Shown: positions 913-10,104 of the stretch, piece after piece
Layout: each line of letters opens with the position of its first letter
Numbering within the stretch: the stretch's first letter is position 1
DNA from: a virus
IMG/VR virus record: IMGVR_UViG_3300046642_000567
Coordinates: 1 to 24,415 of that record
Strand: one strand, 5' to 3'
DNA length: 24,415 nt
The notes under the pieces: generated by a model
What the model was told of the DNA's origin: nothing
Databases searched by the model: none
The model's input: only the letters and a program-made list of their open reading frames with translations
Made by a program: the position numbers and the translations under genes

Positions 913-1508
913 GCCGCCTCCGAATGCCGCCGGTCGAGCAGTTCGCGCAGATAGCTGCACTCCTCTTCCGTCAGTTTGGGCAATTGCTTCAGGATGATCT
1001 GCAACGGTGTTTTTGGCTTGATGAAGCCTGCGGCGATGCCAGCAGCACGAGCAGACACGAATTCGCCACGGGCAAGCGCTTCAGCGATTTCCGGCGCGTC
1101 ACGCTTGAGACGGCGGACGATGCGCTCAGCGGAATCGCTGCTCAGCTTCGATAAACCGTGGCTATCCGCCACTGTTTTTCCTCGACCCGGTCCAGCCGTC
1201 CCTTCTGGTGCGGCTGGTGGTAGATCGGGATCGGCGGCCAAATCCTGCGCCAACCTCGCCTCTAGCTTCTTCAGCGTGATGCCAACTTCGGCGCGCACAT
1301 AGGCGGCGAGATCCTTGAAGCCGCAGACTTCCCAATGCTTATACTGCTTGATGAGATTCAGTTCGTCGGCAACATGCTTGGCGTCGAACGCCTTGCTTTC
1401 CAGAAATCGCTTCAGCGACCGCATGGTCTGGATCGCATACTCGCGCGAACGCGGATCGCGCAACTCTCGCGGCCCGGTGATTGCTGGTTTAGTCGGGGAT
1501 TTTATCAC
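909..1508 (-). CDS. conserved-looking phage protein of unknown function
   Basis: A 199-residue protein with a GTG start at 1508, overlapping the end of the helicase gene by 20 bases. I do not recognise a named family. Residues 20-95 are charged and helical ('LIKQYKHWEVCGFKDLAAYV', then 'VGITLKKLEARLAQDLA'). A Pro/Gly-rich linker follows at about residues 95-112 ('PPAAPEGTAGPGRGKT'). The second half contains 'RRLKRDAPEIAEALARGEF' followed by 'SARAAGIAAGF', a pattern resembling ParB/KorB-like or HTH-containing hypothetical proteins of phages and plasmids, where a 'rapid-fire' alanine helix follows an arginine-rich one. A DNA-binding role is possible but unproven. Coupling to the helicase upstream and the HTH protein downstream suggests DNA metabolism. 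Confidence 0.72.
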   Translation of the reverse strand: MIKSPTKPAITGPRELRDPRSREYAIQTMRSLKRFLESKAFDAKHVADELNLIKQYKHWEVCGFKDLAAYVRAEVGITLKKLEARLAQDLAADPDLPPAAPEGTAGPGRGKTVADSHGLSKLSSDSAERIVRRLKRDAPEIAEALARGEFVSARAAGIAAGFIKPKTPLQIILKQLPKLTEEECSYLRELLDRRHSEAA

Positions 1509-3393
1509 TGATCTGCTCGATGATTGTTTTCATGCGCCGTAAGGTTTCGATGTTTTTGATCTCCCTAAGCTCAACATTCCTCGGCACACCAACCATTCGA
1601 TAAGCAAACGTGAAAATCTTACTGCGAATTGGCCCATATAACTTTTTGTCGTAATAACCAGCCTGTCTGAACATTGCCTGGTTGGTTTTATCGTCGGCAA
1701 GATCGTTGATCTGTCCGTAGAGAGCATTCAGTTGCTGATCGAGGCCCCACGTCGGGGGCTGTGGCATTCCCCCTACCGCCGCATGCCCTGACTGTTTTAG
1801 GACCACAGCAACCTCGGCCTTGGTGTAAACCTCCGCGATCTTCGGCAAGCGCTGAAAAATCCGGGTTATTTCTTCGTAAAATTCCAACTCGCCGACATTG
1901 CCGCGTGAATCGTCGAAACCTGAAATCGCGCCAGGACCAAACGGCAAATCAGGGTCCGGCGGCGGCTTCTCTTCCTTTTCCTTGAGATAAGAATCGACAA
2001 AATCATCAGCTTCCCAACCCGCCATCTCCGACAGTTTGGCCTCGCCGCCTTCCTCGACAATCAACTTTTGCCAGACTGCTGTGCAGAAACAATCTTCCGG
2101 CATCACCAGATGCGCGATAGACAGTCCGCCCTGTGGCGTCGCTGGACGCATCCAAGTCTGGATCATCGTCGCCACTGAGCGAACAGGCGTGAAATAACCA
2201 AGTACCTTGATCCGCCAGTCATCCAACCCAACAGTGCCGGCCTGCTTGACGATAACGCCATCGTCGTCACTCTCTAAAAAATCCTCCATCGCCTTCGCTA
2301 GTGATTCGTCTTCAGGGTCTTGGCTTTTGAGCGTGATAATCCGGAGCCTGCACGCTCGACCCATGATCATCGGCGAAATGTCTGTCGCCAATCTCTTGAT
2401 GGTCTCGGCGTGGGCATTGTCGCGACGGTCGTTAGGCTGGTCACTGCCAGTCACAATCATCATCTTGCAGCGCGGGTCGATAGTCTGCATCAACTGCAAG
2501 CTGGTCAACACAAGCCGGATCGCCGGATCAAGAAAGCGTTCATCGCGAACAACCTTGCCGAGATGTTTTCGGGTGTCCGCGACCTTTAAATCCTTCAACG
2601 CCTTGCCATCGATATCGATGCTCACGACCTGGCGGTCGAGCTTGCACAATACGATTGGTTTTTCTTCCCACGCTTCGGCAAACGTGGTGACGTCATCGGC
2701 TTCTAGTTTACTCAAGGTCCGGACGCCGTCCCAGACATCGACATTGTTGTGGATGCCATCCCCAGCGTCATATGAGAAATAGCGCCGCTCGTCGTCTTCT
2801 CTGATCTGAGTATAACGAAATCCCGGTATTGCGTCGGCGTCCTCGCGGTACGGCGTCGCCGTCAACAGCACCAGCAACGCGCCAGCCTTCTGCATGCGCC
2901 GAAAGAAATCTCCCCAGCGCTTTTTATCGGCCAGAAACTGGCATTCGTCGATAAAGACAGCGAGCGGCTTACCAGTGCGATAGCGCTCCGCTTCAATCAG
3001 TTCGATGCAATCTTCGATATTTGTGCGCAGACAAAGCTGGATGTTAGCGGCCAGCAGGAATTCGCCATTGGAAAACGGCTGGTACTCACTGAACGAAGAG
3101 AGCTGGCGAATGCCGCCCATGACCTCACGAAACGGCATCTCATACCGAGTGATGGTCTGCCCGAGTTTCTTTTCCTTGAAAAATTGCCGCGTTGCCTGCG
3201 ACGCCGGGCTGAAAACAATTCCGCCGCTGACGATGCCGTCCTCGACAGCCTGCCAACATGACGTAATGATCAGGTCACGCTTGCCATAGCGTGTCGGCTT
3301 GACAATGCTGGTCGTAGGCTCGCCATTACGCAAGCGCTGCAAAATCAAATCAAAAGCCCGACGATTGCCAGGGCGCATCTCGTTTAAGTTCAT
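1489..3393 (-). CDS. superfamily II DEAD/DEAH-type helicase with divergent Walker A
   Basis: A 634-residue protein. I chose the ATG at 3393 over one 24 bases upstream because it forms an ATGA overlap with the HNH gene. The motifs are those of an SF2 helicase/translocase. Motif I is 'KPTRYGKRD' (about 32-40), where most members have PTGxGKT, so the usual Thr/Ser after Lys is Arg. Motif II is 'VFIDECQF' (DECQ at about 149-152) and motif III is 'LLTATPYR' (about 178-183). A motif V-like 'KQAGTVGLDDW' comes near 383-393, and a motif VI-like 'MIQTWMRP' near 410-417. C-terminal to this is a roughly 200-residue region without a recognisable domain. Phage relatives act in replication initiation, restart or recombination. 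The altered Walker A could change nucleotide handling. Confidence 0.83.
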   Translation of the reverse strand: MNLNEMRPGNRRAFDLILQRLRNGEPTTSIVKPTRYGKRDLIITSCWQAVEDGIVSGGIVFSPASQATRQFFKEKKLGQTITRYEMPFREVMGGIRQLSSFSEYQPFSNGEFLLAANIQLCLRTNIEDCIELIEAERYRTGKPLAVFIDECQFLADKKRWGDFFRRMQKAGALLVLLTATPYREDADAIPGFRYTQIREDDERRYFSYDAGDGIHNNVDVWDGVRTLSKLEADDVTTFAEAWEEKPIVLCKLDRQVVSIDIDGKALKDLKVADTRKHLGKVVRDERFLDPAIRLVLTSLQLMQTIDPRCKMMIVTGSDQPNDRRDNAHAETIKRLATDISPMIMGRACRLRIITLKSQDPEDESLAKAMEDFLESDDDGVIVKQAGTVGLDDWRIKVLGYFTPVRSVATMIQTWMRPATPQGGLSIAHLVMPEDCFCTAVWQKLIVEEGGEAKLSEMAGWEADDFVDSYLKEKEEKPPPDPDLPFGPGAISGFDDSRGNVGELEFYEEITRIFQRLPKIAEVYTKAEVAVVLKQSGHAAVGGMPQPPTWGLDQQLNALYGQINDLADDKTNQAMFRQAGYYDKKLYGPIRSKIFTFAYRMVGVPRNVELREIKNIETLRRMKTIIEQISDKIPD

Positions 3394-3596
3394 TTTCCAC
3401 CTTTGCTGCGATTGCACCAGCGGTGAGTTGGCTGGAGTTCATGAAAATTTGTTCGCCCGGTTTTTCGAAACGCTTCTCTGTGATCGATCTCCATGTCGCG
3501 CGGATCAAGCGGTTGCTTGCAAATTGCGCAAATGCCTTTTGTCGCTCGCCACAATGCCATTCGTCGCCGCTTTGAACGCAAAGTCCTCTTGGACAT
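3390..3596 (-). CDS. HNH endonuclease, small phage type
   Basis: A 68-residue protein. The ATG at 3596 is chosen because it follows a good Shine-Dalgarno-like GGGAAGGG and sits 20 bases after the upstream stop; a longer in-frame start would overlap that gene. After a basic N-terminus ('RTLRSKRRRMALW') comes a compact HNH fold. CxxC is at residues 23-26 ('CAIC'), 'MEIDHREAF' holds the catalytic D38-H39, 'TNFHELQPTH' carries N50, and 'HRWCN' completes an HxxC zinc pair (H58, C61). HNH proteins nick or cut DNA and in phages often help packaging, recombination or homing. Here the gene is early and ATGA-coupled to the helicase, so replication/recombination is more likely than packaging. Confidence 0.88.
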   Translation of the reverse strand: MSKRTLRSKRRRMALWRATKGICAICKQPLDPRDMEIDHREAFRKTGRTNFHELQPTHRWCNRSKGGK

Positions 3597-3616
3597 TGCC
3601 CTTCCCAACCAAGGTT

Positions 3617-3871
3617 TCAGGCGCGTTCGCGTTTGCGTTTGACGGCCGGCGGCTCCCGCATCGACCACAAATGGTCAGGTGCGGACCTGCCGATCCGCAG
3701 CAATTCGGACTTGATGACGAGGAAGGTATTGGCTGGGAAACGGCCAAAGGCCCGCCAGTTATGGACAGCCTTGGGCGTCGTCGAGGTCAGCCGCGCTACA
3801 GCGGCGGTGCCGCCCAGGGCAGCAATAATTTCTGCTGTATTGTCGATGCTGGTCATGGTAAACGCGACCAT
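3617..3871 (-). CDS. Cro/YdaS-like helix-turn-helix regulator
   Basis: An 84-residue protein taken from the ATG at 3871, which has an AAGAAG purine run 8 bases upstream. A start at 3856 (79 residues) is possible; the farther one at 3964 would run across the divergent control region. Residues 12-60 read 'TAEIIAALGGTAAVARLTS' and then 'TPKAVHNWRAFGRFP'. This is the typical YdaS/Cro pattern, where the 'GGTAAVARLTSTTPKAVHNW' portion gives the two HTH helices. The tail is basic (KRKRERA). It is the first gene of the leftward early operon, divergent from another HTH gene, the classical arrangement of a cro/repressor switch. Repression of the opposing promoter is inferred. Confidence 0.8.
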   Translation of the reverse strand: MVAFTMTSIDNTAEIIAALGGTAAVARLTSTTPKAVHNWRAFGRFPANTFLVIKSELLRIGRSAPDHLWSMREPPAVKRKRERA

Positions 3872-3950
3872 AGTCCAAGCTTCTTCGACTTTACAAGTAC
3901 CAAATAACTTTTCTAGGAGATTTTTTTGGAGTCGCGTAAATTTTTCGTTT
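3872..3950. promoter_or_regulatory. divergent promoter/operator region of the putative genetic switch
   Basis: This 79-base A+T-rich interval separates two divergently transcribed HTH regulators, so it should hold both promoters and their operators. It contains a T7 run, the string TTTCTAGGA at 3910-3918 and a weak dyad AAGT-N8-ACTT near 3894-3909. The same TTTCTAGGA occurs at 4560-4568 in the other A+T-rich intergenic region. I cannot pick clear -35/-10 boxes. The plus-strand ATG at 3951 lacks a well-spaced Shine-Dalgarno (GGAG is about 20 bases away), so that message may be leaderless or weakly translated. Confidence 0.55.
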
Positions 3951-4310
3951 ATGAAGAAGCCCAATCAAGAAAGGGAGAATGCTGCGATTACCCGCAGGCT
4001 TCACATTTTGCGTCATCATGTGTCTGGCAGTGACCACGGGTCAAAGGCACGGTTCGCCGCCAGAATCGGCATCGAATACAAGCGCTGGAACAATTTCGAG
4101 CGTGGCTACCCTCTTCCAAGAGACATGGCGATCCACCTGGTCAGGACCATTCATGGCCTGACACTGGACTGGATTTACCTCGGCCGCGAGGATGGCCTGT
4201 CGATCGCGCTTCAGCGGGAACTGGCAGAAGCCGGAAAATCCGTCACATTAGTGGAGACCGGCTCTGGTTCCGGCTCTTCCAAAAAGCCCGTCACCAAATC
4301 CCGCGCATAA
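3951..4310 (+). CDS. helix-turn-helix regulator, possible lysogeny repressor
   Basis: A 119-residue protein from the ATG at 3951. The open frame extends well upstream of this ATG, but that part is antisense to the divergent regulator. Residues 15-75 form a Cro/CI-type HTH: 'GSKARFAARIGIEYKRWNNF' (30-49), then 'ERGYPLPRDMAIHLV' and 'GLTLDWIYLGREDGLS'. The 'RWNNFERGYPLP' core is characteristic of XRE-family regulators. There is no S24 peptidase-like domain, so induction would not proceed by LexA-like self-cleavage. The C-terminal 35 residues are low complexity (Gly/Ser-rich) and antisense to another candidate gene. Divergence from the Cro-like gene suggests a repressor role; this is inference. 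Confidence 0.8.
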   Translation: MKKPNQERENAAITRRLHILRHHVSGSDHGSKARFAARIGIEYKRWNNFERGYPLPRDMAIHLVRTIHGLTLDWIYLGREDGLSIALQRELAEAGKSVTLVETGSGSGSSKKPVTKSRA

Positions 4311-4924: not shown

Positions 4925-5128
4925 ATGATCGACGACGAGCGCGTGGCCGAAGGCCTCGACCACATCCTGACCGCGCTCGACATCATCGCCGGCATGGCGC
5001 TGAAGCCGGAGGACTACGACGAGGTCGCGGCGGAGCAGGTCCGCCTCGGCCAGGTCATCAGTCGGGTGCAATTAATTTTGAGCTTCATCGACGCACGGAA
5101 TCCGAGAACAGTAAGGCGGATGCAATGA
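4925..5128 (+). CDS. small acidic helical phage protein
   Basis: A 67-residue protein from the ATG at 4925, which follows an ideal GGAGG at 4915-4919. An upstream in-frame GTG overlaps the preceding stop and is less likely. The sequence is one long helical protein ('VAEGLDHILTALDIIAGMAL', then 'DYDEVAAEQVRLGQVISRVQ') with an aliphatic heptad-like pattern, so it may dimerise. No catalytic motif or membrane segment is visible. Its stop overlaps the next ATG (ATGA). Function unknown. Confidence 0.7.
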   Translation: MIDDERVAEGLDHILTALDIIAGMALKPEDYDEVAAEQVRLGQVISRVQLILSFIDARNPRTVRRMQ

Positions 5129-5487
5129 GCAACCTCCAGCAGGTCCGCGATGCGGTCTGGGAAGCCCTGCACACTTGTGTCATGGACGAGGACGCGCGGC
5201 ATTTGCTACGTCAGGCGCTGCACCTGATGCGCCGGAAGCAAAGCCATGCAATGGGACGCCGAAAAGCAGCAATTCATCCAAAAGCTGTGGCCGACGCATT
5301 CAGCCGGCTCAATCGTCGAAAAGATCTGGTTCCAGTTCGGGGAAAAGTGCAACCGCAACATGGTGATCGGGATCGTTCACCGCATGCAGCGAAAGAAGAG
5401 GCTCGAGAAAAAAGGCGCTGGCGTGCTGCCAAAGGTGAACAATCGCGCAGCGCCGCGCCAGCGAAAGCCGCGCACAATGAAGCCTAA
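5125..5487 (+). CDS. small protein overlapping the gcrA-like gene; C-terminal half doubtful
   Basis: The open frame gives 120 residues. The ATG at 5125 sits in an ATGA overlap with the preceding gene, which supports a real start. Residues 1-40 look like normal helical protein ('NLQQVRDAVWEALHTCVMDE', 'ARHLLRQALHLMRRKQ'). From about residue 41 on, the frame overlaps the GcrA-like gene for 242 bases, and in this frame the third codon positions lose their G+C bias while the residues become a basic, low-complexity mix. The tail is therefore probably not under selection: the ancestral stop may have been lost, or the gene truncated and extended. No function recognised. Confidence 0.5.
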   Translation: MSNLQQVRDAVWEALHTCVMDEDARHLLRQALHLMRRKQSHAMGRRKAAIHPKAVADAFSRLNRRKDLVPVRGKVQPQHGDRDRSPHAAKEEAREKRRWRAAKGEQSRSAAPAKAAHNEA

Positions 5488-5710
5488 ACCAAAACCGCAA
5501 TGGAAACCGATGATCCAGAAGTATGACGGCCCGCGCGTGCGCGGCATCCGGTGCCCGTGCCAGGTCGTCGACCTTGAATCCTGGAATTGCCATTGGCCGT
5601 TCGGCGATCCACGCGAGCCGAGCTTCTATTTCTGCGGCGCCGTGGTTGCGGAAGGCCGGCAGTATTGCCCGACGCATCTCACATCGGCCTACGACAGGCG
5701 AGCCGGATGA
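5246..5710 (+). CDS. gcrA-like: GcrA-family cell cycle regulator, phage-encoded
   Basis: A 154-residue protein from an ATG at 5246 preceded by GGAAG. It has both halves of the GcrA family. The N-terminal DNA-binding domain is at residues 1-52 ('QWDAEKQQFIQKLW', 'SAGSIVEKIWFQFG', 'NRNMVIGIVHRMQRKKR', matching the W-x-E...LW...IA..L...RNAVIGKVHRL signature). A basic linker follows (about 53-90). The C-terminal segment contains 'NCHWPFGDPREPSFYFCG' and 'GRQYCPTHLTSAYDRR', matching the CxWPxGDP...FCG...YCxxH motif. Host GcrA works with sigma-70 at promoters carrying CcrM-methylated GANTC sites. A phage copy could redirect host cell-cycle transcription. It is slightly shorter than typical host GcrA, and the linker is unusually Lys/Arg/Pro-rich. 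Confidence 0.9.
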   Translation: MQWDAEKQQFIQKLWPTHSAGSIVEKIWFQFGEKCNRNMVIGIVHRMQRKKRLEKKGAGVLPKVNNRAAPRQRKPRTMKPKPKPQWKPMIQKYDGPRVRGIRCPCQVVDLESWNCHWPFGDPREPSFYFCGAVVAEGRQYCPTHLTSAYDRRAG

Positions 5711-6195
5711 TCGACAGCATCGCACCGGAAAGCCTGCGCGTGCCGACGCACTGGGCAGTGCTGTCTGAATGGCTTCCTGCGGGGAGGTTTAGAATTCCGC
5801 TGACGCCGGCCAAGATGGCGTTAGCCACAGCCGCGATGCTGGCGCTGCTGATGGCGGCTGCAATCCGCAGCCTGCCTGGCGACGAGCGCATCGTGGTCGA
5901 GCGGCCGACGATCGAGGCCCGCGCCGACGACATCAAGGTTATGCCTAAAGCCGATCGTGAGCCAATCCGAGTAATAAACCTATCCACCGAGTCAAAACCG
6001 GTGGATGACGCGCCGCGCACCACGCCCGCCCCGGACAATGCGCCCGCGTCGATGCCGCCCGTGCTCCTAGTGCAGGACGACAAGCCTACTGCATCTCGGC
6101 ATAGGCGGCATCACAAAACCCATAACAATGTCTGCACCAGGCACGGCTTGAGAAAAGTCGAGACGCATGGCGGCCGATCGTGGCGATGCCGATGA
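5707..6195 (+). CDS. single-pass membrane protein with basic Cys-containing tail
   Basis: A 162-residue protein. The ATG at 5707 overlaps the gcrA-like stop (ATGA), which selects it over an in-frame start 120 bases upstream. A hydrophobic segment at about 35-54 ('MALATAAMLALLMAAAIRSL') suggests one transmembrane helix. The roughly 100 residues after it are rich in Asp, Pro and Arg. The end reads 'CTRHGLRKVETHGGRSWRCR', with two Cys and His/Arg-rich context that might bind metal or nucleic acid. Such 'CxRHGxRKV...GGRSWRCR' tails occur in short proteins of rhizobial prophages as I recall them, without known function. Translational coupling suggests it is co-expressed with GcrA. Confidence 0.72.
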   Translation: MIDSIAPESLRVPTHWAVLSEWLPAGRFRIPLTPAKMALATAAMLALLMAAAIRSLPGDERIVVERPTIEARADDIKVMPKADREPIRVINLSTESKPVDDAPRTTPAPDNAPASMPPVLLVQDDKPTASRHRRHHKTHNNVCTRHGLRKVETHGGRSWRCR

Positions 6196-6204
6196 TGAAG
6201 AAAA

Positions 6205-6291
6205 ATGATTAAACCTTATTTCTTTTATGCCGTGCTGCTATCACTGCTGATGTGGGGACTGATTATTTATGCCGTGCGGAAAGCGTTTTAA
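6205..6291 (+). CDS. 28-residue membrane micropeptide
   Basis: A short frame from the ATG at 6205 (with GAAG 4 bases upstream) encodes 'MIKPYFFYAVLLSLLMWGLI' followed by 'IYAVRKAF' and a TAA stop. It is a single hydrophobic helix with a basic C-terminal end, typical of small membrane peptides. It overlaps the start of the acyltransferase gene by 23 bases in another frame, so it could also serve as a translational leader for it. The hydrophobic profile and overlap support it, but the size makes chance coding possible. Confidence 0.45.
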   Translation: MIKPYFFYAVLLSLLMWGLIIYAVRKAF

Positions 6292-7399
6292 CGCCATCGA
6301 GGGCTTACGAGGCTGGTTGGCTTGGATGGTGGTATTCGATCATATTGCGTGGTGGAGCGGTTTTCGGGGTCCGCTCGGCGAATTCATGCGCAATTTGGGC
6401 TGGCCTGCGGTGACGACGTTTATTGTGGTATCCGGTTTCGTCATCGCCCATTTGGTTCTAGAACGGCGGGAAGCCTACCCGTATTATCTGCTGCGGCGGT
6501 TCATGCGGCTGTTTCCGCTATTCGCCGCCTGCTGCCTCTTAGGCTATTTCGTCTATGCGTTGCCGCTCACGATTAGCGGTTTCGATGCCGAATTCCTCAC
6601 ACATTTGCAAGCCGTCGTCGACAGCACCGAACGGTTTTTCTGGGCCCATGTCGTCGCCCATGCCAGCCTGCTGTATGGCGCAATTCCGCACGACTGGCTG
6701 CCGGCAAGCGACGTCGCCTTTAACATGGCGGCATGGACGATTTCGTTGGAGTGGCAGTTCTACATCGTGGCGCCCTTGATGGTAGCAGCACTGGTCAAAT
6801 GGCCGGCACCCGCGGCCTTGTCGCTGGCGCTGTTTTTCGCCGTTACGCAATGGCTGTTCGACCGCAAATATATCGGGCACTACGGGCAACCATCCTTGCT
6901 ATTGGGCATGGGCGAGTTTTTCATGCTCGGTATCGTCAGCCGTCTGCTGTATCCGCGATTGACCGGCAAGGTGGAGAACCAATATTTGGTGCTGGCCTGC
7001 ATCGTCGTGGTCTATGCGCTGACCAAGCATCATGCGCTGACGCTGTGGGCCGTGGTCTATCTCGGTCTGCTGGTTGCCGATCCTCCCCGGCTTTACACGC
7101 TGGCCTTGGAGAGCCCGCTTGCGCAGTATCTCGGCGCCCGATCCTATTCGGTGTTCCTGTCGCATTTCCTGGTCGTCAATGGTTGTGTATGGCTGTGGTG
7201 GTATCTGTTTGGCGTAGCTCCCGGCGTGGTACCGTTGACGCTGATGGTGGTGCCGAGCGCATTATTGCTGGCAGACGTTACTTATCGTTGGATCGAACTG
7301 CCGGGCATTCGATTGGGATCCTATTGGTGTAAGGCGTTGTCTACCCGTCCCGTAAAGCAGCAATGGGTTGAAATCAAATGCCGGGTTGGCTCACCGTAG
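6269..7399 (+). CDS. membrane O-acyltransferase, acyltransferase-3 family
   Basis: A 376-residue polytopic membrane protein starting at an ATG at 6269 (GGGGA about 10 bases upstream). The N-terminus has the family's 'AIEGLRGWLAWMVVFDH' with the R-x10-H pair (R14 and H25) that is essential in this family. It is followed by 'PAVTTFIVVSGFVIAH' and 'LLRRFMRLFPLF' (R76-R77...R80). About ten hydrophobic segments follow across the remainder, and 'LGARSYSVFLSHFLVV' closes the core near residues 289-304, as in OafB/OatA-type enzymes. These enzymes acylate, usually O-acetylate, cell-surface sugars. In a prophage this typically modifies O-antigen or exopolysaccharide and blocks superinfection. Substrate is unknown; the fused SGNH domain of some relatives is absent. 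Confidence 0.9.
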   Translation: MPCGKRFNAIEGLRGWLAWMVVFDHIAWWSGFRGPLGEFMRNLGWPAVTTFIVVSGFVIAHLVLERREAYPYYLLRRFMRLFPLFAACCLLGYFVYALPLTISGFDAEFLTHLQAVVDSTERFFWAHVVAHASLLYGAIPHDWLPASDVAFNMAAWTISLEWQFYIVAPLMVAALVKWPAPAALSLALFFAVTQWLFDRKYIGHYGQPSLLLGMGEFFMLGIVSRLLYPRLTGKVENQYLVLACIVVVYALTKHHALTLWAVVYLGLLVADPPRLYTLALESPLAQYLGARSYSVFLSHFLVVNGCVWLWWYLFGVAPGVVPLTLMVVPSALLLADVTYRWIELPGIRLGSYWCKALSTRPVKQQWVEIKCRVGSP

Positions 7400-7961: not shown

Positions 7962-9986
7962 TCAGCTAATCTGATAGATATGAACCGTTGAAGCCTTAGC
8001 GAACGTGTCGGTGAATGTACCGCCCGAGATTGGGATCGAGCGGTTTTCACCGACAACGTTTGCGGTGGTGCCTGAGGCCACCGTGAACGTTGCGGAGATC
8101 GGACCCGATGCCTCGCCAGCTCGAGTGGTTGCAAAAATGTAGAACCCGTTGACCAGCGCTAGGCCGTTGTTGGTGACGTTGCCGCCCTGATACTGATGGA
8201 CGCAAGCCTCGATGCCGCCGTTGAGCCAATTTGCCTCATAGACCGGGAAAAGATAACCGTGGGGCGTCACCGTCGTCAGGAAGCCCTTGGCGAACGGCGA
8301 GTTAAGCACCGGCGCAAGTTGGCTGATCAGGGTGTTGGTGGCGACGGCTTGGGCGTAGACGGAAATGGACTGGCCGCTCTGCACCGTCTGACTGAACTGG
8401 CCGCCGCCATGGTCGTTGACGAAGGCGAAATAAACGATGGCCCGCGCGCCATGAATAATCTGCGACCACGCCGCCCAATTCAACTGTGGCGGCGTAATCT
8501 GGTGTCTACCTTTCTCATTCAGTTTGCCGTCATAGTTTTCAAGGTAGACAAACAACGGACAGCGGCTGGGGGCGAGGCTGGTCTGGTTCGGGATATCGCT
8601 GAACGAACCGTTATTTGAACCGTTGCCCCATGATCGCATCACATCGATCATTTGGCCGTAGTGACTGCCGCGCGCGATTTGGTCGGTTGTCGGGCTGGTT
8701 GGCAGTCCAAGGATTATATTGATTGACCCGTTGACGCCGGAAAACATATTGCCGGGGTCGGTCGTCGCCGTGATCGTGCTGACCGCAAACCAGTAGATGT
8801 CAATTGAGAACCAGCCGATGGATTTCTTGCTGCCGTTCGGTGTGGTAAAATGATTGGCGGAAAGCAAAACGTTCATTTTGGTGCCACCAATATCGCCATA
8901 CTCGATGGCGGTATGGGTGCCATTGACGTGCATTAACCGGCCATCCTGTGTGGCGTTGGGCGTGTTGAAGAAAGCGGTAAAATCGGCAGTGCTCGACGGC
9001 TCGTCAAGCTCCATTCCAGCGGTGCTGGCATTGGCCACAGGCGAGCCAATGGTCCAGACCCCGGCATTCACCACGTTGGTCATGTTGCTGCCGCCGGTAA
9101 CGGCAACCGAGACGTTCAACTGCAGCGCCTGGAACTTGGCCATATCGCCGGTAGCGTCTTCGTATAGACCAAAGAAAGATCCCAGCGGAAAGAACTTCGG
9201 GTTATCCCAAGAACAACCGGCATACCAGATCGGCTTGCCAGCGTTATATGAGGCACTAGCCGGGAAAGTGTAGCCCTCCCTGCTGTGGTAATTGCTGCTC
9301 ATCGTAGTTGGCGAGGTCATGGTTTCGCCGTCGATGGCTTGCAACGTTACGCCAGAAGTAACCGGAGGCTGTGTGGTGCCGCCAACAAAAACCACGTCCC
9401 TGAAATAGTTGTTGCTGCGTGAGGTCTGGCTTGGGCAGGCACCACGTGGGCCATAGACCCCGTTGTTGCCGACAATGGTCGAGAGTGGTGGATTGCTGAC
9501 ACTGGTGGTCAGCGCGTTTTCCGTGGTGGAGAAATAGGAATTGCTGGTGCCGACCGAAGCGACGTAGGTGGTGTTCGCGGTGATGTTCAATGGCGTGGCG
9601 AGATTCTGTGTCTGCCAACCCGACGCGGTCTCGCCGGTAAACGTCACGCTGGCCAACTTGGCTCCGGTGGCCGACCAGATATTGCCAGTATGGGTGCCGG
9701 TCTCCTTGTCGCCCTTCCAGAACCGCAAGGCTGTAATCGATCCGGCAGTCGAGGATTTGAACTTGACGCCGAGCTCGTAGGTGACCGATGCACCATCGGA
9801 AGCGTTGACCAGCACTGGTGTTTGTGTGGTGAATAGCGAGACCGACGTGATCTGTTCCGGTGGCGGGGTCGTGGTGTCCGTATAGGTCACGCTGCCAGTA
9901 AATGTTGCGCCATCAACGTTGCCGGTGAAAGTGGGCCCGGTAACTGTGCCCTTCAACGTTCCGTTCGTGACATTGACGACGGTCAT
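7962..9986 (-). CDS. tailspike / receptor-binding protein with DUF4082 and glycosidase-like domains
   Basis: A 674-residue protein. The ATG at 9986 is chosen over one 90 bases upstream because of a GGAGG 8 bases away. The first 45 residues carry short beta repeats ('GTLKGTVTGPTFTGNVDGAT'). Residues about 50-203 match a DUF4082 jelly-roll: 'YELGVKFKSSTAGSITALRF', 'GTHTGNIWSATGAKLASVTF', 'TPLNITANTTYVASVG'. After a short Pro/Thr linker, residues 220-600 look like a TIM-barrel glycosidase, e.g. 'SIDIYWFAVSTI', 'CPLFVYLENYDG', 'NWAAWSQIIHGARAIVYFAF', and the C-terminus is a beta-sandwich ('FTVASGTTANVVGENRSIPI'). Enzymatic tailspikes of this type degrade or bind capsular or exopolysaccharide. The GH family is not fixed and no catalytic Glu pair is certain; 'LFVYLEN' could carry one. 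Confidence 0.8.
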   Translation of the reverse strand: MTVVNVTNGTLKGTVTGPTFTGNVDGATFTGSVTYTDTTTPPPEQITSVSLFTTQTPVLVNASDGASVTYELGVKFKSSTAGSITALRFWKGDKETGTHTGNIWSATGAKLASVTFTGETASGWQTQNLATPLNITANTTYVASVGTSNSYFSTTENALTTSVSNPPLSTIVGNNGVYGPRGACPSQTSRSNNYFRDVVFVGGTTQPPVTSGVTLQAIDGETMTSPTTMSSNYHSREGYTFPASASYNAGKPIWYAGCSWDNPKFFPLGSFFGLYEDATGDMAKFQALQLNVSVAVTGGSNMTNVVNAGVWTIGSPVANASTAGMELDEPSSTADFTAFFNTPNATQDGRLMHVNGTHTAIEYGDIGGTKMNVLLSANHFTTPNGSKKSIGWFSIDIYWFAVSTITATTDPGNMFSGVNGSINIILGLPTSPTTDQIARGSHYGQMIDVMRSWGNGSNNGSFSDIPNQTSLAPSRCPLFVYLENYDGKLNEKGRHQITPPQLNWAAWSQIIHGARAIVYFAFVNDHGGGQFSQTVQSGQSISVYAQAVATNTLISQLAPVLNSPFAKGFLTTVTPHGYLFPVYEANWLNGGIEACVHQYQGGNVTNNGLALVNGFYIFATTRAGEASGPISATFTVASGTTANVVGENRSIPISGGTFTDTFAKASTVHIYQIS

Positions 9987-10018
9987 AATCCGTTCCTCCA
10001 AAGTGCGCTCGCTAGATC

Positions 10019-10065
10019 GGCCGCCCTGGGCTGGGGCTAGGGCGACGATTGCGCCCAGGACGGCC
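10019..10065 (-). promoter_or_regulatory. GC-rich stem-loop in the leader of the tailspike gene
   Basis: The arms GGCCGCCCTGGGC (10019-10031) and GCCCAGGACGGCC (10053-10065) form a 13-base inverted repeat around a 21-base loop. The one imperfect pair (10024/10060) is a G-U wobble in the minus-strand RNA but a C-A mismatch in plus-strand RNA, so structure fits the minus transcript. It sits about 32 bases upstream of the tailspike ATG. No T-run follows it, so it is not a classic intrinsic terminator; an attenuator, pause or RNA-stability element is possible. Confidence 0.5.
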
Positions 10066-10104
10066 TCATCCCGCATTACCTATAGGGGACAGGTACGCGG
10101 AATT

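Follow-up and report, generated by a model that had tools for sequence, protein, structure and literature searches.

GcrA is a bacterial protein that helps RNA polymerase to start transcription. In Caulobacter crescentus, it is laid out as a DNA-binding domain (DBD; residues 1–45), a linker (residues 46–107), and a sigma-interacting domain (SID; residues 108–173), of which the DBD binds methylated promoter DNA and the SID binds domain 2 of the sigma factor (PMC7403470). Relatives of this protein have been reported from several phages: the phiCbK-like Caulobacter phages encode a GcrA homologue (gp222) that has been proposed to alter the replication state of the host (PMC3556154), and GcrA-like genes have been found in Agrobacterium phage Atu_ph08 (PMC6630229), cyanophage Pam5 (PMC9382816), Sinorhizobium phiLM21-like prophages of S. 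meliloti (PMC12429752), a coral-associated phage (PMC11309003), and Brucella phage Y17 (PMC11836647). Phage GcrA genes as such are hence already known and common, although we found no experimental test of one in the phage GcrA literature that we searched, and the idea that they redirect host transcription predates the locus described here, since it was put forward for the phiCbK-like phages (PMC3556154). What is new here is an altered recognition helix common to a group found only in phages, together with an extreme linker charge.

The window that we analyzed is the whole of an IMG/VR record of 24,415 bases, which is classed as linear and is therefore probably a fragment. Like C. crescentus GcrA (7ye1, 7ye2, 5yix, and 5yiv), the protein that it encodes has two domains (a helix-turn-helix [HTH] with the motif RN..G..HR and a CxWPxGDP...FCG...YC..H domain), both of which superpose on the phage model, and a linker of similar length; it differs in being phage-encoded and only about 35% identical, in having a far more basic linker, in the replacement of a lysine and an insert before the recognition helix, and in that phage gcrA genes are without the GANTC enrichment seen upstream of their host counterparts. 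The phiCbK protein gp222 is likewise phage-encoded and a member of the Pfam GcrA family; however, phiCbK itself is large and prolate and infects swarmer cells, whereas the sister phages of the window look temperate and carry gcrA near a repressor module. We set phiCbK beside the window by description; a protein search of phage records returned no phiCbK match. The genes of Atu_ph08, Y17, the phiLM21-like phages, and Synechococcus phages are also phage-borne and annotated by homology but belong to other phage lineages, and the alignment of the Synechococcus phage copy with that of the window (tblastn) is confined to the C-terminal domain, at 41%.

A Diverged GcrA-Family Gene in a Tailed Phage

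The window has genes for tape-measure, tail, and neck-like proteins and for an amidase endolysin on the minus strand, and on these grounds derives from a tailed phage; the tape-measure, tail, and endolysin genes bear out the description of the gene as phage-encoded in the first-pass annotation. No integrase was detected in this 24.4-kb fragment. Among its structural genes is a 704-aa DUF4082-domain protein (7962–10076, minus strand) that has no PHROG match.

The ORF at 5246–5710 (table 1) is a real, diverged GcrA-family gene. It matches Pfam GcrA with 72.9 bits (E 4.9e-20; cut-off 26.9) over positions 1–148 of the 155 in the model and matches full-length C. crescentus GcrA in the RNA polymerase complex 7ye1 at E 2.3e-9; two unnamed PHROG families are also matched. 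The GcrA-like identity first read from two signature halves is confirmed and is far from a chance resemblance: CNRNMVIGIVHRMQ lies near the N-terminus and CHWPFGDP...FYFCG...YCPTH near the C-terminus, and the latter motif, which has a single occurrence in the window, is absent from all 200 codon-shuffled windows. Against the NCBIfam equivalog model for cell-cycle GcrA (NF050816), the phage protein scores 56.1 bits where the cut-off is 280 and, judged on this profile and by the NCBI standard, it is not an orthologue of the host cell-cycle protein. As a separate observation from the control genomes, Pfam GcrA also gave a match above cut-off in the archaeon Sulfolobus acidocaldarius, possibly to the HTH only.

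Table 1. Coordinates and Properties of Features at the Phage gcrA Locus.
Feature	Position	Strand	Properties
Small DNA-binding protein, YdaS/Cro-like, divergent	3617–3871	−	phrog_8008 7.8e-8; YdaS 1e-3, below cut-off
Intergenic spacer of the divergent regulator pair	3872–3950		79 bp; one GANTC site, 3929–3933
Repressor-like ORF	3951–4310	+	119 aa; resembles HTH regulators by eye; no Pfam match
Small ORF directly upstream of gcrA	5125–5487	+	3' part lies over gcrA, in a different reading frame
gcrA-family ORF	5246–5710	+	154 aa; ATG at 5246, TGA ends at 5710; Pfam PF07750 and PDB 7ye1
N-terminal DNA-binding domain	5246–5404	+	Residues 1–53; helices 5–14, 20–31, 37–51; model match 5yiv_A
Recognition-like helix NRNMVIGIVHRM in DNA-binding domain			Ile at residue 43 (Lys in hosts); 5-residue insert before helix
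Basic low-confidence linker	5405–5548	+	About residues 54–101; block-mean pLDDT 52–79; K/R fraction 0.34
C-terminal sigma-interacting domain	5549–5695	+	Residues 102–150; invariant C115, C130, C141, H144; 5yix_B
Conserved downstream neighbor	5707–6195	+	Ends CTRHG..K..WRCR; overlaps gcrA stop by 4 bases

An AlphaFold2 model of the phage protein, computed from 46 aligned proteins, has a mean pLDDT of 81.8, with values above 90 at residues 1–50 and 111–140 and low values in the linker. Its C-terminal part matches the GcrA-SID solved with sigma domain 2 (5yix_B) with a Z of 7.1 and an rmsd of 1.8 over 48 of 48 residues (35% identity), and residues 1–53 match the C. crescentus GcrA-DBD solved with methylated DNA (5yiv_A) with a Z of 6.9 and an rmsd of 1.1 over 44 of 45 residues. 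Many unrelated HTH chains reach a Z similar to that of GcrA-DBD for the N-terminal part, and the assignment of this domain therefore rests on the sequence match. Taken together, the profile, the sequence match to the PDB entry, and the predicted fold support both membership of the GcrA family and the two-domain layout. Eight residues (W3, G42, R46, C115, C130, Y140, C141, and H144) are invariant in all 46 aligned proteins, and the phage protein keeps the RN..G..HR helix as well as the Cys/Cys/Cys/His set, which looks like a metal site.

Relatives of the Phage Protein

A scan of IMG/VR yielded 102 viral contigs that encode a GcrA relative, of which 80 were kept. Most of these phage genes are only distantly alike and are scattered over many contigs; the only close relatives among those kept are L089, L090, L091, and L092 (L092 and L002 being one contig), which share about 48–56% identity, an Ile/Val recognition helix, and the same downstream gene with the window, and have less basic linkers. 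All members of this group are unannotated metagenome contigs, and the group was found only in phages. In a tree of 160 rows, the nearest neighbors of the window protein are phage copies, and the host/phage label changes 8 times as opposed to about 52 times when labels are shuffled; support near the window is weak, and as no starred branch holds it, its exact place is unsure. Recent capture of the gene from a host, which we considered, was rejected on the ground that the nearest rows of the tree are phage copies.

That both domains are kept in this phage-only group, at ~50–56% identity to the window, suggests selection for function. The wide scatter of mostly distant phage copies might be expected of a passenger (moron), that is, a host-derived gene drifting without function in the phage, but we regard this explanation as highly improbable given that the nearest relatives are phage copies with few label changes on the tree, that the same downstream neighbor accompanies the gene in all members, and that all key residues survive about 50% divergence.

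Identity between the phage protein and host GcrA is about 30–35%, and the host of the phage is probably an alphaproteobacterium. Two Bradyrhizobium genomes contain four and three GcrA-like matches, respectively; extra GcrA copies therefore do occur in host genomes, and some of them may be prophage-borne. Searches of 296 genomes of the Bradyrhizobium genome's family, run without a positive control, returned no copy of the phage gcrA at E 1e-20, and at E 1e-60 neither the endolysin nor a tail protein had a close match; no phage DNA similar to the tail block was found.

An Altered Recognition Helix and a Strongly Basic Linker

The recognition helix of host GcrA reads RNAVIGK[VA]HRL in nearly all of 19 hosts, and the Lys is present in all 19. 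The corresponding helix of the window protein is RNMVIGIVHRM, in which Ile stands in place of the Lys of the host GK[VA]HR; Ile or Val replaces this Lys in every member of the phage group (5/5), whereas 19 of 22 other phage GcrA proteins keep it. An insert of about five residues directly before the helix is also common to the group, and the SID of the window protein shows no comparable change. Because the Lys has been lost, DNA recognition may differ from that of host GcrA.

We compared linkers, taken as the stretch between the N-terminal helix HR and the cysteine of CxWP, among the proteins for which an automatic search located the two motifs (68 from hosts and 52 from phages); thirteen hosts and some phages without the exact motif were left out, and the hosts, being the 80 closest by tblastn, are a nonrandom sample. 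The first-pass annotation had described the phage linker as longer than that of host GcrA and richer in Lys, Arg, and Pro, and of these traits only the abundance of Lys and Arg stands. The K+R fraction (0.34) compares with a host mean of 0.16 (sd 0.03) and a phage mean of 0.21, and the net charge over the 59-residue stretch measured is +18 against a host mean of +5.4; none of the 68 hosts and one of the 52 phages attain such figures. The Pro content is ordinary, equaled or exceeded by 16 of the 68 hosts, and a longer linker was rejected: at 68 residues it falls below the median of 74 found both in hosts and in other phages, and 60 of the 68 hosts have a longer one.

In the window protein, the SID motifs are intact but the recognition helix is altered (by Lys substitution in 5/5 members and by the insert), and the very basic linker could grip DNA regardless of sequence. 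Such a protein might serve as a competitor that, by occupying sigma domain 2, excludes host GcrA from methylated cell-cycle promoters and stalls the host cell cycle. We consider this unlikely: the DNA-binding fold, the RN..G..HR motif, and the overall helix are all retained, and a pure competitor would need none of them.

Gene Neighborhood

A divergent pair of regulators (3617–3871 on the minus and 3951–4310 on the plus strand) lies ~0.9 kb before gcrA in the window, and its plus-strand member occupies the position held by HTH/S24 repressors in the sister phages. In L002, L089, and L090, a repressor-like gene (HTH or S24) ends 0.3–0.5 kb before gcrA on the same strand; gcrA thus lies 0.3–1 kb downstream of a same-strand repressor-like gene in four of the five group members; in the fifth (L091), the part of the contig that was read shows no repressor adjoining gcrA. 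A tyrosine integrase is also encoded by L002, L089, and L090, which therefore look temperate.

Immediately upstream, the small ORF at 5125–5487 runs through the gcrA start with a 242-base overlap, which is far shorter in L002; the first part of this ORF is common to both phages. Downstream, a homologue of the 5707–6195 gene follows gcrA in all four other group members, and its CT.H...WRCR-like tail is present in all five. Beyond this block, the window carries an Acyltransferase family 3 gene (6269–7399; 47% identity to an L002 gene), possibly a surface-sugar acetylase. On the far side of the regulators are two minus-strand ORFs, one helicase-like (1489–3417; recognized by eye, with no Pfam match) and the other HNH (3390–3668); in L002, HNH and ResIII-helicase domains occur within a single 860-aa ORF.

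GANTC Sites and Methylases

The first-pass annotation had pointed out that host GcrA acts with sigma-70 at GANTC-methylated promoters. One GANTC site (3929) does lie in the promoter region of the divergent regulators, but over the whole fragment GANTC is depleted, with 59 sites observed against 110 expected from dinucleotides (0.54 of expectation), and enrichment on the fragment was rejected. This depletion is nothing special, since host loci (0.21–0.30) and other gcrA phages (0.32) are more depleted still; the sister contigs stand at 0.36. The 200 bases upstream of gcrA give a different picture for hosts, where 175 sites against 20.7 expected (8.5-fold; L009–L088) agree with the six GANTC sites reported upstream of A. 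tumefaciens gcrA (PMC11514494), and for phages, where there are 28 against 23.7 expected (1.2-fold; L089–L168), a gap that may arise partly because the phage regions are probably mostly coding and the host ones mostly intergenic. Within the phage group itself, 4 sites are present where 1.7 are expected, a count too small to support enrichment.

A phage protein that reads GANTC-methylated promoters as host GcrA does and switches on host replication genes would accord with the shared fold and core residues and with the published proposal for phiCbK-like phages (PMC3556154). The replaced recognition-helix Lys, a score far under the equivalog cut-off at about 30–35% identity, and the absence of upstream GANTC enrichment in phages all speak against such plain mimicry, and we think it decidedly unlikely.

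The first-pass annotation also raised a CcrM-type methylase elsewhere in the phage; neither N6_N4_Mtase (PF01555, the CcrM family) nor MT-A70 (PF05063) was found in the 24.4-kb window or in the sister contigs, all of which are possibly incomplete. Other gcrA-bearing contigs do carry methylases. In L005 (IMG/VR 3300044801_000056), one phage ORF (472–2013), which immediately precedes a GcrA-family gene, joins a DUF1153 domain to an MT-A70 adenine methylase, bringing three cell-cycle-like parts together in one phage; DUF1153 is the family that includes the CtrA inhibitor SciP. MT-A70-like methylase ORFs also occur at up to about 5 kb from gcrA in L096, L099, L102, L112, L120, L122, L131, L146, and L168.

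Proposed Function

We propose, with a probability of roughly 0.6, that the phage protein is a sigma70 cofactor that acts for the phage, most likely by raising transcription from phage promoters. The Pfam match, the match to 7ye1, the two domain folds, and the invariant residues favor this reading, as does the position of gcrA near a repressor-like gene in four of the five members, three of which carry an integrase; the lost Lys, the lack of GANTC enrichment on the fragment and of a clear one before the gene in the group, the absence of a detected integrase from the window, and L091, with no adjoining repressor in the part read, weaken it. Produced from the regulator-side block close to the repressor genes, the protein would bind domain 2 of the main sigma factor of the host through its C-terminal domain, as in the solved Caulobacter complexes, and the N-terminal HTH and strongly positive linker would hold promoter DNA, the DNA contact again being modeled on those complexes. 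RNA polymerase would then load on and open particular promoters, most likely those of the phage and perhaps some that drive replication genes of the host, at a fixed stage of infection or lysogeny. The promoters chosen, the timing, and any part played by methylation are conjectural. That the protein redirects host cell-cycle transcription, as first suggested, is plausible.

More tentatively, proteins of this phage group might be sigma70 cofactors that are independent of methylation and have a changed DNA specificity, with the linker as a general grip on DNA, and so be free of CcrM timing; we offer this as a possibility to which we give no great weight. If it is true, the phage could activate its own promoters whatever the stage of the host cell cycle. 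As a natural variant in which the sigma-binding half of GcrA is kept and the DNA-reading half altered, the group offers a way to ask which residues tie GcrA to DNA methylation, and it bears on the question of whether the lysogeny switch of temperate phages is tied to the host cell cycle or freed from it.
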